From a virus, in IMG/VR virus record IMGVR_UViG_3300047469_000007, positions 1-22,855 of that record: a stretch of 22,855 bases of DNA; one strand, 5' to 3'. The notes under the pieces were generated by a model, which was not told where the DNA came from, searched no databases, and saw only the letters and a program-made list of their open reading frames with translations. The position numbers and the translations under genes were made by a program. Positions 1-15,218 of the stretch are shown here, piece by piece (position 1 is the stretch's first letter; each line of letters opens with the position of its first letter).

Positions 1-706
1 CGTAGATTCCCTCACCGATGAAATCCCTCACACCCTTATCAACTATCACTAAATCCTTGTCGTTGATGGTGCCCTCCATGCTCTGACCCCATCCGTTGAT
101 CATGGCCAAAGACGCGGCAGCAGTGTAGGTCACGCCTTTCTCGCGCAGGAGCTCCTCGCGCACTACCAGATTCCGCACCACCTCTGTGTAATCAGGTGGT
201 AGCTGGCCATCACCCATTGCCGCCCGGATGTCGTATTGGGGGATAAGGATCTCGTCGTTCTTGGGCTTAAGGCTGGAATAGTTGGATGGCACGTAACTCT
301 GATTCGTGCCGAGGCCGCTCTCTGCTTGAGCAGCAGCTGCCAACACCATTTCGCGAACCTTTTCCGACAGGTTCTTACCGGCTTTAGATGAAAGCATCTG
401 ATTCATCAGCTCGGCAGTTGATGAGGCTGAAGAAGACTTTTCGTCGTCGGACGCAGGCTCAAAACCATCTAGGTTCGTAACTGGAGCCGCCTCACTAAAC
501 GGTATTGAATCAAACCACGCCCAGGGTAGGCCCTCGACCTCTTCGATACGCCTTGCCACGTCGTCGCCGAGGTTCTTTGCGGTCTTGTTGGAAAGTATCT
601 GGCTCAGATGCGCAGGACTCATCCCCCAACGCTCGGCGCACGACGCTTTCTTCTGTTTGCCGATCAGCTTGATGAGGTTGAGCTTTCGTATTTCGTAGAT
701 ATCCAT
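1..706 (-). CDS. cI: CI-type phage repressor (XRE HTH + S24 peptidase), C-terminus beyond window
   Basis: Lysogeny repressor that binds the adjacent operators and is expected to self-cleave when RecA filaments form after DNA damage. The frame is open from the ATG at 706 to the window edge, giving 235 visible residues. Residues 20-55 form a helix-turn-helix (AERWGMSPAHLSQILSNK). A Ser-rich linker lies around 86-98. From about residue 150 the LexA/S24 domain begins, with the catalytic-serine region at 205-214 (GWGQSMEGTI, nucleophile S209). The catalytic lysine would lie outside the window. The usual Ala-Gly cleavage dipeptide appears as Met164-Gly165 (RAAMGDG). There is no Shine-Dalgarno before the ATG, and the candidate promoter would give a leader of only about 10 nt, like near-leaderless lambda cI. 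It is divergent from cro, as expected. The family call is secure; the cleavage details are inferred. Confidence 0.92.
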   Translation of the reverse strand, partial: MDIYEIRKLNLIKLIGKQKKASCAERWGMSPAHLSQILSNKTAKNLGDDVARRIEEVEGLPWAWFDSIPFSEAAPVTNLDGFEPASDDEKSSSASSTAELMNQMLSSKAGKNLSEKVREMVLAAAAQAESGLGTNQSYVPSNYSSLKPKNDEILIPQYDIRAAMGDGQLPPDYTEVVRNLVVREELLREKGVTYTAAASLAMINGWGQSMEGTINDKDLVIVDKGVRDFIGEGIY

Positions 707-723
707 GATGCGCAGAATGCCAG

Positions 724-751
724 TGTTTAGCTGGCTGCTAAATATGCTCAA
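724..751 (-). promoter_or_regulatory. candidate PRM (repressor maintenance promoter)
   Basis: Leftward candidate with -35 TTGAGC (746-751), a 16-bp spacer and -10 TAAACA (724-729). The hexamers are weak, which fits a promoter needing activation by bound repressor. The operator at 727-741 covers the -10 and spacer, the geometry of lambda OR3 over PRM. Inferred from position and sequence only. Confidence 0.45.
726..742. promoter_or_regulatory. CI/Cro operator, site nearest cI (OR3-like)
   Basis: Perfect inverted repeat TTTAGC-TGGCT-GCTAAA: 6-bp arms and a 5-nt centre. It overlaps the candidate repressor promoter, so occupancy should shut off cI, as Cro does at OR3 in lambda. The same half-site and spacing recur at 776-790, which is the main support for operator function. 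Confidence 0.7.
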
Positions 752-1264: not shown

Positions 1265-1349
1265 GGATGCGTCCTTGATCAGTTTGAGTTGACCAATTTT
1301 CGGCGTGTTGGCACCAGGCCACCACAGAAACACAGCAGAGGTTTTACGA

Positions 1350-1772
1350 ATGGAAAATTTCTTGCGGGCATGCCAGGCAGCAGTGCTGGACAACGAAGCC
1401 AAGAGCCTCGCGGCAAAGATGGGTGTGCCACATGTGAGCCTGCTCCAGCGCGCCAACCCTGATAACGATGCTCACCGGCTGACCGCTGAACATCTGTTCG
1501 GGATCTTGCTGCACACGGGAGATATGAGGCCGCTTGCGGTGTTGGCTGAAGAGTTCGGCTTTGAGCTGGTCGCCAAAGTGGCACCGAAGCCTCAGGCGCT
1601 TACCTCATCCCTGATCAACGTCGGCAAGGAAGTGGCTGATCTGACCATCGCAGTCCATGAGGCTCTCAAGGACAGCCATGTCAGCACATTCGAGAAGAGC
1701 TTGATCCGACAGGAGATCAACCACGTTCGCCAGAGCCTGGACGTGATGGATTCCTCGGTGAAGGCAGCCTGA
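1350..1772 (+). CDS. cII: CII-type phage regulator (CP76 family)
   Basis: Regulator expected to activate repressor synthesis during establishment of lysogeny. The 140-residue form starts at MENFLRACQAAVLDNEAKSL with AGAGG upstream. A GTG-initiated version 15 residues longer exists at 1305 but lacks a convincing ribosome binding site. The N-terminal part (about residues 5-50, SLAAKMGVPHVSLLQRANPD) is a helix-turn-helix-like segment. The centre (LFGILLHTGDMRPLAVLAEE) matches the Phage_CP76/regulatory-CII family seen in non-enteric phages, not the lambda CII fold. The C-terminus is helical. Its position after cro and before the O/P replication genes is the standard CII slot. DNA targets were not identified; no clear TTGC-N6-TTGC site was seen. 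Confidence 0.72.
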   Translation: MENFLRACQAAVLDNEAKSLAAKMGVPHVSLLQRANPDNDAHRLTAEHLFGILLHTGDMRPLAVLAEEFGFELVAKVAPKPQALTSSLINVGKEVADLTIAVHEALKDSHVSTFEKSLIRQEINHVRQSLDVMDSSVKAA

Positions 1773-11225: not shown

Positions 11226-12694
11226 TGGCTGCTAACGACGTCACCTTCACCCGCCCTGAGTACAAGGCGGCGCTAAACCGCTGGCGCCTGGTGCGTGACG
11301 TCTGCAAGGGTTCCGAGACAATTAAGGCGGCCGGTGAGGTCTATCTGCCAAAGCCGAACGCTCACGACCATAGCGAACAGAACAAAGAGCGATACAAGGC
11401 CTACATCGAGCGCGCCGTATTCTTCAACGCCACCGGCCGGACGAAAAACAGCCTTGTAGGTGCGGTATTCCGCATATGGCCAACGCTGGTCGTACCCGGT
11501 GCGCTCAGCTATGTGTCGAAGGACATAGACGGCCAGGGTGTCAGCATCTATCAGCAGTCTCAATCAGTGATCGGACACCTGCTTGAGGTTGGGCGTCATG
11601 GCCTGCTGGTGGACTATGTGTCCGTTAAAGCTGGCACTGTTAGCAAGGCCGACGAGATCGCCGGCCGCGCCCGGGCCAGCGTCAACAGCTACCCGGCTGA
11701 GTCAATCATCAACTGGAAGACCCGACAGGTCGGCGGTCAGCATCTGCTGAGCCTCGTCGTGCTGCGCGAATGCGTTGATGTCGACACCGAGGATGGTTTC
11801 GGCAGTGAGCAGGTGGTGCAATACCGCGTGCTGCGCCTCGACGTGACGGGTATCTATACCCAGGAGCTGTGGCAGGAGGGCAAAAGTAAGAGCGAGATGA
11901 TCACGCCGCCGTTTACCCCGCTGGATGGGGCCGGCCTGCCATGGCGGGTGATCCCGTTCCAGTTCTTGGGTAGCGAGAACAATGATTCAAGCATCGATGA
12001 CTCGCCGCTGTATGACATGGCAGAGGTCAATAGAGGTCACTACCGTAACAGCGCAGACTATGAAGATGCGGCCTTCCTTATGGGTCAGCCCCAGGTGTTC
12101 ATGTCCGGGCTCGATGAGCACTGGCTTGGCATCCTGAAGAAGGAAGGCATCTATTTCGGATCGCGGGCGATCTTGCCGCTGCCGGTGAATGGCTCGGCCG
12201 GCATCATTCAGGCCCAGGCCAACACCATGATCAAGGAGGCCATGGACGCCAAGGAAAACCAATTGGTTGCCCTCGGCGCCAGGCTGATCGAGCGAGGCAG
12301 CGCGGTGAAGACCGCCACCCAAGCTGATAACGACAGCGCGGCGGAGCACAGCGTTCTGTCTTTGATCGTGAGCAACGTCAGCGAGGCTTACGATCAATGC
12401 CTGGTCTGGATGGCGAAGTTCGTTGGCGCTACTGGCCAGACGCTCTACAAGCTGAACCAAGACTTCACTCAGATCAGCCTCGACGCGAACATTCTCGGCC
12501 AGCTATTCGCCGCGGTACAGGGCGGCAAGCTGCCCGAGTCGGACTTCTGGCAATACCTGCGCGATCGCGGGGTCATTGACCCGGAAAAGACGAACGATGA
12601 TGTCCGCGACGAACTGGCCGCGCAAAGCCCTGGCCCTCAGCTGGATGATGACAACGAGGTAATCCCAAATGGCGGCCAATCAAGCAATCCTTGA
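11225..12694 (+). CDS. portal protein (DUF4055 type)
   Basis: A 489-residue portal, the dodecameric ring at the capsid vertex through which DNA enters and leaves. It follows terL directly and matches the DUF4055 portal-like group: an N-terminal stretch (RPEYKAALNRWRLVRDVCKG, then YLPKPNAHDH), a central AVFFNATGRTKNSLVGAVFR segment, and a wing/stem region around GRHGLLVDYV and YNSADYED-like motifs (NSADYEDAAFLMGQPQVFMS). The C-terminus is acidic and overlaps the next gene by 26 bp. No frameshift or truncation is seen. Confidence 0.88.
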   Translation: MAANDVTFTRPEYKAALNRWRLVRDVCKGSETIKAAGEVYLPKPNAHDHSEQNKERYKAYIERAVFFNATGRTKNSLVGAVFRIWPTLVVPGALSYVSKDIDGQGVSIYQQSQSVIGHLLEVGRHGLLVDYVSVKAGTVSKADEIAGRARASVNSYPAESIINWKTRQVGGQHLLSLVVLRECVDVDTEDGFGSEQVVQYRVLRLDVTGIYTQELWQEGKSKSEMITPPFTPLDGAGLPWRVIPFQFLGSENNDSSIDDSPLYDMAEVNRGHYRNSADYEDAAFLMGQPQVFMSGLDEHWLGILKKEGIYFGSRAILPLPVNGSAGIIQAQANTMIKEAMDAKENQLVALGARLIERGSAVKTATQADNDSAAEHSVLSLIVSNVSEAYDQCLVWMAKFVGATGQTLYKLNQDFTQISLDANILGQLFAAVQGGKLPESDFWQYLRDRGVIDPEKTNDDVRDELAAQSPGPQLDDDNEVIPNGGQSSNP

Positions 12695-13757
12695 CGCCAC
12701 CATTCGGAACGCTGTCTTCCTCGAACAACTGAAGTCCGGTGAGGTGGAGAAGTTCGCGCCCTTCCTGAAGGAGATTGACCGGTCGATTCGTGATCAGCTC
12801 GGTCGTGCGGATCTGACCGATTACACCACCGCCAGGCTGGAGAAGCTGCTCACCGAGGTCGATAGCCTGCTTCTGGGGATATTCGATCGGTATAGCGATC
12901 AGTTGAACCTTGATCTGGTCGACATCGCCAACTACGAGGCCCAGTTCGAAGCCGCCAGCCTGACCCGCGCCGCGCCGGTTGGCGTTGTGTTCGATGCGGT
13001 GCTGCCTGGGGTTGCTGCAATTCGTGCGGCCATCCTGACCAACCCGCTCAGCGTACGCGGTGCCGACGGCGGCAAGCTGCTCAAGGCGTTCATTGATGGC
13101 TTCACCACGAACGAGCGGCAACGCCTCACTGGCGCAATCCGGCAGGGATTCTTCGAAGGTCAGACGAACTTCCAGATCATCAAGGCCGTTCGCGGCACGA
13201 AGGCTCTCAACTATAACGACGGCATACTGGCCACGACCAACCGAAACGCCGAGGCGATCGTCCGCACAGCAGTCCAGCACGTAGCCACCCAGGCGCGAAT
13301 GGAGACGCTGAAGGAAAACAGCGATGTCGTTCAGTCGGTGGAGTGGGTCAGCACCCTGGATACGCGCACAACTGCGCAGTGTCGGACACTGGATGGGCGG
13401 CGGTTCAAGCTGACTGAAGGTCCCAGGCCGCCGCTGCACATCCGGTGCCGGTCGACCGTGGTTGCGGTCACCAGATTCAGCGCACTGTTCAGCCAGGGCG
13501 CTACACGGGCATCAGTCGGCGAGGGAGGGCCTCAACAAGTCCGCGCCGATCAGACCTATTACGAGTGGCTGCAACAACAGCCGGCGGCCTTCCAAGACAA
13601 GGCCATTGGCCCGGTCCGTGGAAAGCTGTTTCGCGATGGTGGGCTGAGTGTTGAGCGGTTTTCTGAGCTTCAGCTAGATCGGAACTTCAAGCCTCTGACC
13701 CTGGAGCAGATGAAGACGCTTGAACCACTGGCGTTTGCAAGCGCAGGCATCAGTTGA
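12669..13757 (+). CDS. head morphogenesis protein (Mu gpF / SPP1 gp7-like)
   Basis: A 362-residue minor head protein. The conserved part lies at about 195-265: NRNAEAIVRTAVQHVATQAR, then VEWVSTLDTRTTAQCRTLDG and PPLHIRCRSTVVAV. It includes the C-x-x-LDG and PPLHxxCRS motifs of the gpF/gp7 family. These proteins are injected or assist early capsid assembly. The N-terminal 190 residues are helical. GAGGT precedes the start, which lies inside the portal gene. Just after its stop the strand changes to the inserted leftward gene. Confidence 0.86.
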   Translation: MAANQAILDATIRNAVFLEQLKSGEVEKFAPFLKEIDRSIRDQLGRADLTDYTTARLEKLLTEVDSLLLGIFDRYSDQLNLDLVDIANYEAQFEAASLTRAAPVGVVFDAVLPGVAAIRAAILTNPLSVRGADGGKLLKAFIDGFTTNERQRLTGAIRQGFFEGQTNFQIIKAVRGTKALNYNDGILATTNRNAEAIVRTAVQHVATQARMETLKENSDVVQSVEWVSTLDTRTTAQCRTLDGRRFKLTEGPRPPLHIRCRSTVVAVTRFSALFSQGATRASVGEGGPQQVRADQTYYEWLQQQPAAFQDKAIGPVRGKLFRDGGLSVERFSELQLDRNFKPLTLEQMKTLEPLAFASAGIS

Positions 13758-13769
13758 GTTAATCGACGC

Positions 13770-14375
13770 TTAATCTGTAATCCGCTTGTACCAAAAATAA
13801 GGCCTAATTTTATTAGTTACTTCTGGTTTGCCAATAAGGAATGACTTGGCAGCATCGATATTAAAATCGAGTGCGTTAACCGGGCGATAAAAGTCATACT
13901 TGCGCTTTGTCGAAATAAACATGCCGGTTTCGATAAGTGCATTAACTACTGCGGTGGTTGCCTGCATTGTATTGCGATATGGGGAAGCCTTGCTCAAGAA
14001 CTCAGAACGGATCAGCGGATCCAATGACCCACGATGACGAGCTTCAAAGTTATCCAGTGCTTGGGCTCTCATGCTTACCGGGAAGCTGTTGCCGTACTCG
14101 GCCTTAACGTCATCACGGTCGTTGTCAGCAGCCATGGCGATCAGGTTGGTGTCGACACAATACTGAGCCAAGCGGACGAGATCTATGTATTCACCTGGCG
14201 CGTTTGGAAGAGACACGCGCAGGCCGTCTTCTGACAAGAGACTTTTCTCATTGCTGGCAGACAGGGCATCGGCATACGGAACAGCTGTATTAAGCATTAA
14301 GTATTCCTCGTAGGGGAGAAGGGCAAACATAGGCTTTCCTTCTCGGTCGTTTATTATTTGTACTGGGGGTTTCAT
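13770..14375 (-). CDS. leftward A+T-rich accessory gene with antitoxin-like N-terminus
   Basis: A 201-residue protein inserted, in reverse, between the gpF-like and scaffold genes. Residues 5-28 (VQIINDREGKPMFALLPYEE and YLML) match the segment found at the start of several type II antitoxins and XRE-type regulators (I-x-D-x-x-GKP-x-F-x-x-LP-x-x-x-Y). The remaining 170 residues match nothing I recognise and are mixed alpha/beta (IDLVRLAQYCVDTNLIAMAA, then SPYRNTMQATTAVVNALIET). AGAGGA lies 8 nt upstream of the ATG and an inverted repeat (14394-14414) lies just beyond. Base composition is visibly more A+T-rich than its neighbours, a sign of separate origin. It is probably a moron expressed in the lysogen, with a possible defence, exclusion or regulatory role. 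Function unproven. Confidence 0.72.
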   Translation of the reverse strand: MKPPVQIINDREGKPMFALLPYEEYLMLNTAVPYADALSASNEKSLLSEDGLRVSLPNAPGEYIDLVRLAQYCVDTNLIAMAADNDRDDVKAEYGNSFPVSMRAQALDNFEARHRGSLDPLIRSEFLSKASPYRNTMQATTAVVNALIETGMFISTKRKYDFYRPVNALDFNIDAAKSFLIGKPEVTNKIRPYFWYKRITD

Positions 14376-14393
14376 ATTAAAATCCTCTGGCTG

Positions 14394-14414
14394 TTTCGTT
14401 TAGCTTAAACGAAA
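14394..14414. promoter_or_regulatory. inverted-repeat operator upstream of the leftward accessory gene
   Basis: 9-bp arms TTTCGTTTA and TAAACGAAA separated by GCT, lying 19 bp upstream of the start codon of the leftward gene. A weak minus-strand promoter (-35 TTGCTT, 16 bp, -10 TAAGCT) overlaps it. Perfect arms of this size are typical of autoregulated antitoxin or regulator operators. It is not a CI site: its arms and spacing differ, although both contain TTTAGC. Confidence 0.55.
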
Positions 14415-14507
14415 TAAATGAAAAAGCAAGAAATTATTAAGCCCTCTCAAGGCAGGGCATTAAATTCTGCAGGCAGGGCCTGCGCCACGTCTCCGGGAGA
14501 CAAGCAA

Positions 14508-15218
14508 ATGGGTTTGAAATATCAGCTGGACACTCTTGATGGAGTGGATGACGGCGTGCGCGCTCTTTACACCGAGAAGGACGGCAAGTATGTCCTGGGT
14601 ATCGAAGGCTTGCCGCCACAAGAAGACGTTTCGGGCCTTAAGTCGAAGGTCGAAGAGCTGCTTAGCGAGAAGAAGCTGGCTGAAAAGAAAGCGCGCGAAG
14701 CAGAAGAGGTGGCCCGCACCGAGCGTGAAGAAGCCGCTCGCAAGTCTGGCAACGTCGAAGAACTCGAAAAGTCCTGGTCCGAGAAGTACAACCGCCTGCA
14801 AAGCGAGTTGACCGGCCAGCTTGATCAGGAGCGCGGCGCGCTGAGCAACCAGATCCGGGATCTGACCGTCGGCCGTACCGCTACTGACATCGCGTCTGCC
14901 CTGGCAATTCCAGGCAGCGCCAAAGCCCTGTTGCCGCACATCGAACGCCGTTTGAGCGTCGAGCAGCGCGACGGGAAGCCTGTTGTGGTCGTCCTCGACC
15001 AGCAGGGCAAGCTCTCGGCTTCAACGCTGGATGAGCTGAAAGCAGAATTCGCAAACGACACGGCCTTCGCGCCGTTGATCGCGGGCAGCAAAGCATCAGG
15101 TGGCGGGGCCTCTGGTGCTGGGAATGGCGGCGGGGCCGCGAAAGGAAACATCGGCGGCACCAAGGCCGAGCGCACTCAAGCGCTTGCCAGCAAATACCCA
15201 GACCTCCCCTTAAAGTAA
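14508..15218 (+). CDS. capsid scaffolding protein
   Basis: A 236-residue acidic, coiled-coil protein (about 45-125, with SGLKSKVEELLSEKKLAEKK and AREAEEVARTEREEAARKSG) followed by a folded part (GRTATDIASALAIPGSAKAL, about 125-180). A flexible Gly/Ala-rich stretch (GGGASGAGNGGGAAKG) precedes a basic C-terminal tail that would bind capsid protein. Its size, coiled coil and place immediately before the major capsid gene define a scaffold. The start is the ATG with GGGAGA upstream. A 30-codon longer frame starts in the A+T-rich inserted segment without a ribosome binding site and is rejected. Confidence 0.78.
   Translation: MGLKYQLDTLDGVDDGVRALYTEKDGKYVLGIEGLPPQEDVSGLKSKVEELLSEKKLAEKKAREAEEVARTEREEAARKSGNVEELEKSWSEKYNRLQSELTGQLDQERGALSNQIRDLTVGRTATDIASALAIPGSAKALLPHIERRLSVEQRDGKPVVVVLDQQGKLSASTLDELKAEFANDTAFAPLIAGSKASGGGASGAGNGGGAAKGNIGGTKAERTQALASKYPDLPLK

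Follow-up and report, generated by a model that had tools for sequence, protein, structure and literature searches.

An antitoxin-like cargo gene with a putative operator between the head genes of a lambda-like temperate phage

Why should a single leftward gene that begins like an antitoxin, with no adjoining toxin, stand between two rightward head genes of a phage? We analyzed a stretch of 22,855 nucleotides of viral DNA (IMG/VR record IMGVR_UViG_3300047469_000007, positions 1 to 22,855; hereafter the window), in which such a gene occupies a slot between the gpF-like and scaffold genes of a Pseudomonas prophage. The gene and its setting comprise the following features.

2..751, minus strand: CI-like repressor gene, truncated by the window edge and on the strand of the cargo gene
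1305..1772, plus strand: CII-like activator gene
12669..13757, plus strand: gpF-like head morphogenesis gene, left neighbour (phrog_241, E 1e-147; PF04233)
13755..13757, plus strand: stop codon of the gpF-like gene, left edge of the slot
13770..14375, minus strand: cargo gene, 201 aa, with ATG at 14375 and stop at 13770; antitoxin-like N-terminal hairpin and C-terminal domain (phrog_20342)
14469..14483, no strand: GCAGGCAGGGCCTGC, right edge of the slot, found directly after the gpF stop in empty slots
14508..15218, plus strand: scaffold gene, right neighbour (phrog_206, E 2.4e-57), with its start re-assigned from 14418

Upstream of the cargo gene lie the genes for the CI-like repressor, CII, O- and P-like replication proteins, NinB and NinG, as in a lambda-like temperate phage; the temperate lifestyle follows from the presence of the CI-like and CII-like genes. 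A perfect 9-bp palindrome, GTTCACGCATGCGTGAAC, is located at 1774-1791, just past the CII-like gene and upstream of the O-like gene. The initial annotation had described a leftward, A+T-rich gene that splits the gpF-like and scaffold genes, and the reading frame, both neighbours and the drop in GC content (∼0.44-0.53 in the insert versus 0.58-0.65 in the flanks) all bear this out. The scaffold reading frame probably starts at 14508, not at 14418, since the same start is used in relatives with an empty slot: it is preceded by a Shine-Dalgarno-like GGGAG, and in these relatives the identical start and ribosome-binding site directly follow. Judging from its orientation, it is plausible that the cargo gene is expressed in the lysogen.

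Two neighbour-gene searches and the phage records gave 116 distinct sequences that span the region from gpF to the major capsid gene. Among them, the distance from gpF to the scaffold match varies between 6 and 1300 bp, and 10 slots are strictly empty. Whether the gene is variably present in related phages had been raised as a check on the initial annotation, and these 116 slots, which range from empty to ∼1.3 kb, answer it in the affirmative. The GCAGGCAGGGCCTGC palindrome at the right edge is kept in most relatives, a loosened form of the motif being found in 103 of the 116 slots; it may act in recombination, RNA structure or regulation. The slot contents fall into many unrelated clusters, and the window gene thus represents one alternative among many. 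Among the clusters are nine proteins of the window protein's own family, all leftward, 11 rightward Tad2-like proteins (for example L155:1612-2100; PF11195 E 2.3e-24 for one of them), and 14 leftward proteins that contain a hydrophobic segment. This distribution, in which two conserved neighbours enclose a variable gene, makes the window gene a phage cargo (moron) gene.

The other occupants of the slot deserve a brief description. The Tad2-like cluster places a gene of the Thoeris anti-defence type in the cargo position. Two leftward families other than that of the window protein (14 and 3 members, for example L130:4618-5259 and L062:7100-7795) possess an N-terminal hydrophobic segment, have no Pfam match, and are candidates for exclusion proteins.

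Searched by itself, the window protein had no usable match among annotated phages and plasmids, and viral and genome contigs gave no match at all; its relatives were reached only via neighbouring genes and then via alignment. Using the alignment of the slot relatives as query, we identified 61 loci encoding 38 distinct proteins. Most of the relatives lie antisense behind gpF in temperate Pseudomonas phages, including cases in which gpF identity drops to 31-57%. Five loci (L164-L167 and L170, from Azonexus, two Duganella, Pseudomonas sp. H9 and Methylovulum) do not have the gpF-like and scaffold genes nearby and look chromosomal. Matches to phrog_20342, distant ones counted, were found in 15 of 299 Pseudomonas genomes, and a search of 398 genomes of the phylum with the A3 profile returned the starting genome only. 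NCBIfam contained no match to the window protein, the sequence search of solved structures returned nothing useful, and we found no paper in the open literature consulted that describes the family. In close pairs of relatives, whole-gene omega is mostly 0.03-0.10 where computable, and ranges from 0 to 0.18 in the N-terminal segment. These ratios indicate strong purifying selection on both parts of the protein, and the low omega in the N-terminal segment indicates that the hairpin is kept despite the lack of an accompanying toxin.

The two parts of the protein correspond to the following segments.

14286..14375, minus strand: residues 1-30, strand-turn-strand-helix, like the N-terminus of RelE/ParE-type antitoxins
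13851..14228, minus strand: residues 50-175, conserved domain with L-D-P-x-I-R ... Y-[RK]-N-T-M-Q-A ... T-G-x-F and the order H-S-H-H-S-S

The N-terminal segment is characterized by the pattern VQFIxDxxGxPxFAVLPYxxY, and the antitoxin likeness first noticed in its 28 initial residues was reproduced by profile comparisons. The phrog_7241 profile ('transcriptional regulator') matches 31 of the 38 family members (best E 3.8e-4). Among annotated proteins, the nearest is a 'transcriptional regulator' that adjoins a RelE-like toxin in Pseudomonas phage LESphi2, and hhalign aligned the family with this antitoxin at a probability of 96% over columns 1-35. The same probability, 96%, was obtained with a second antitoxin, which adjoins a ParE-family toxin (PF05016). 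The window protein and the phrog_7241 antitoxins (in LESphi2, P21_29 with its toxin P21_30) are thus homologous over their first ∼35 residues, and for both, DNA binding is presumed to be a property of the C-terminal part. They differ in what follows: both reference antitoxins continue into an XRE helix-turn-helix (HTH_3), for which the window protein has no match, and the phrog_7241 antitoxins adjoin a toxin, whereas the window protein carries the phrog_20342 C-terminal part instead and has no adjoining toxin.

The C-terminal part is recognized by phrog_20342 in the window protein (E 3.3e-38) and in all 37 relatives (best E 3.6e-88), all of which belong to this family. Structure models (pLDDT 77 and 80) give the order helix-strand-helix-helix-strand-strand, which is that of a winged helix, and the fold lists consist mostly of MarR, PadR, SarA-type and other winged helices, with a best Z of 5.5 and a best Foldseek E of 0.16, which is not significant; the fold search of BFVD also gave nothing significant. 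The proposed structure prediction of the remainder of the protein thus returned a winged-helix-like order and no significant Foldseek match. On these models, a winged helix is the probable, though weakly predicted, fold of the C-terminal domain. The remainder had also been described as unfamiliar. This stands as far as function is concerned, since phrog_20342 is a sequence cluster with no function assigned, and does not stand for the domain itself, which recurs after HicB antitoxins.

The recurrence was found in other Pseudomonas loci, where the same domain follows HicB and a helix-turn-helix (E 1e-9 to 4e-14; hhalign 97.9%, residues 48-171). The HicB part of these proteins matches E. coli HicB (6hpb) at E 4e-11, and LDxxIR, then NTMQA, then TGxF is the hallmark of the wider domain set. 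The HicB-type proteins (L230:7276-8004, L231:7261-7980, L232:6888-7607, L233:7035-7757 and L243:1492-2217) share the C-terminal domain with the window protein, and several of them are in prophage-like settings; by eye they have no obvious toxin neighbour, HicA included. They differ in that their N-terminus, HicB with a helix-turn-helix, is unrelated to the window hairpin, and in that they lie outside the gpF-scaffold slot. Since the HicB-type proteins already have a helix-turn-helix before the added domain, the domain need not be a DNA reader everywhere.

The domain also occurs in other contexts. Two stand-alone copies of 99 and 109 aa (L245:1504-1803 and L244:1495-1824) were observed, one after an ADP-ribosylglycohydrolase-like gene and one beside a WYL-like gene, both neighbours being named by eye. 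In a 382-aa protein (L237:4246-5394) the domain is at the start, and this protein has a WYL regulator on one side and, on the other, a 474-aa ORF that matches the C-terminal end of DruE (PADLOC E 7.6e-97). It can be speculated, with low confidence, that the domain is an undescribed module that phages and defence loci put on different antitoxin N-termini (RelE-type hairpin, HicB) or use alone, and that it couples antitoxin-like proteins to counter-defence or defence, in which case the prophage gene would be a one-gene, self-limiting antidote or sensor.

An antitoxin-like N-terminus raises the question of a toxin. By inspection, the 500 bp flanking each of the 38 homologs contain no toxin-like ORF, and the same-strand ORFs within this distance in the phage loci look like shadows of flanking genes; tblastn of the family loci with two RelE-type toxin queries gave no match. 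The toxin could instead be the C-terminal part of the same protein, as implied by the single-gene toxin-antitoxin-like system that the initial annotation had considered. Fused systems of this kind have been described, namely CapRel-SJ46 and EzeT (PMC10865869), and the antitoxin-like N-terminus would suit such an arrangement. However, the Pfam, NCBIfam and PADLOC searches tied the C-terminal domain to no toxin family, its models resemble a winged helix, and elsewhere it is joined to HicB, which is itself an antitoxin. We regard a fused toxin as very improbable, and the reading was dropped for want of a toxin match of any kind.

Alternatively, the protein could be expressed from the prophage as a single-gene defence or superinfection exclusion system that blocks or aborts other phages, with autoregulation keeping it harmless. 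This would fit a hotspot shared with other cargo, some of it leftward and membrane-like and some of it anti-defence, and one domain-bearing protein adjoins the partial DruE match and a WYL regulator. In addition, the C-terminal domain of three relatives gives matches to the PADLOC candidate PDC-S57, although weak ones (E 0.0025-0.013). The likeness to PDC-S57, itself only a candidate, is confined to these matches; it lies below the family level and is absent for the window protein, which has no PADLOC match and in which no enzymatic or membrane domain was recognized. Matches at chance level in some members (DpdJ, 0.033; KwaB, 0.025) were set aside. A defence or exclusion activity of the window protein is therefore unsupported by these searches, and we consider this alternative doubtful.

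A different line of evidence comes from the DNA upstream of the cargo gene, which contains a repeat.

14394..14423, no strand: putative operator of three half-sites, TTTCGTTTA / TAAACGAAA / TAAATGAAA, an inverted pair plus one direct copy; the half-site is common to relatives

The 9-bp arms that had been reported at 14394-14414 match exactly in the palindrome TTTCGTTTA-GCT-TAAACGAAA, and a third half-site, TTTCATTTA, directly adjoins it at 14415-14423. When the 132-bp intergenic region was shuffled 500 times with dinucleotides preserved, a perfect repeat with arms of at least 9 bp arose in only 4 cases. In the 22.9-kb window as a whole, four such repeats were listed, two of which overlap at one place, versus a shuffle mean of 1.7, and no further copies of the operator were found inside the window. 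As such repeats are only mildly unusual window-wide, the strong evidence for an operator is comparative. The weak promoter that was said to overlap the repeat did not reappear: a sigma-70 scan, in which the total of candidates was at chance level, placed no site over the repeat, and the nearest leftward candidate (9 of 12, 14380-14353) is downstream of it. The lack of a good predicted promoter over the operator counts against the explanation that we favour below.

For 20 non-redundant relatives, the best upstream palindromes surpass those of shuffled sequences with a combined p of 8e-9, versus 0.61, 0.63 and 0.08 (the third only marginal) in the same test of three other cargo families of the slot; these tests were designed after the upstream sequences had been seen, and the p values are descriptive. 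The half-site TTTCGTTT has 28 sites in 21 upstream regions, where shuffles give ∼4 and gene bodies 2, and the best k-mer across 15 shuffled sets reached 16. The upstream inverted repeats are clade-specific, and in one clade GAGYGA-type sites replace the TTTCGTTT half-site. At least two GAGYGA sites are present in all six members that have an E(V/I)RF wing and in no other member, a correlation that amounts to one event, since these members form essentially one clade. Searches with stringent patterns found the strong operator pattern at one site in each of five bacterial genomes (5.6-6.8 Mb) and of the phage records searched, in each case before the gene itself. The earlier suggestion of an autoregulated gene is thus well supported at the sequence level by the enriched clade-specific repeats and the single strong operator per genome. 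Such a pattern would be expected of an autorepressor, and autorepression taken alone is likely.

The same observations bear on whether the protein regulates other genes. A phage-borne regulator that represses or activates the transcription of phage, competing-phage or host genes, and in which the hairpin is a dimerization relic of its ancestry, would account for the winged-helix-like model, the conserved operator, the missing toxin partner and the chromosomal relatives outside the slot. Against it, the strong-pattern site occurs only at the protein's own gene in the five bacterial genomes and the phage records. We consider such a regulator rather unlikely.

As the most likely reading of the locus, we tentatively favour an orphan antitoxin-like autorepressor that the prophage carries as lysogenic cargo and that would act as an antidote. 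The C-terminal domain, probably a winged helix, would read TTTCRTTTA-type half-sites, with the protein probably acting as a dimer, and operator binding would keep leftward transcription in the prophage down to a low set level. Since a site fitting the strong pattern turned up nowhere else in the genomes searched, gene regulation is probably not what makes the protein useful; its benefit would probably come from the binding of another protein via the antitoxin-derived N-terminal hairpin. The likeliest partner would be a host toxin of the RelE/ParE family, so that the prophage would counter toxin-based abortive infection or addiction with an antidote provided in trans. We infer neutralization of a host toxin from the ancestry of the hairpin, the unique operator and the missing partner; this step is a guess, possible rather than probable. 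The hairpin may serve for dimerization only, which is a point against the antidote step.

Among known systems, T4 Dmd is a phage antidote and is not known to be autoregulated cargo of the kind represented by the window gene. The likeness of the window protein to Dmd and to solitary antitoxins would lie in the proposed mode, that of an antitoxin-type protein without a toxin of its own. Solitary or cross-acting antitoxins have been reviewed as anti-addiction agents (PMC4803016).

Orphan antitoxin-like genes of prophages usually remain hypothetical; here, the comparison yields an operator, a swappable architecture and an exact slot. Two questions are thereby made directly testable, namely whether relatives of antitoxins that lack a toxin of their own act in trans on toxins of the host, and what role the recurring C-terminal domain has. 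The slot, which also harbours Tad2-like anti-defence genes, is a compact place for finding new lysogenic and counter-defence functions.
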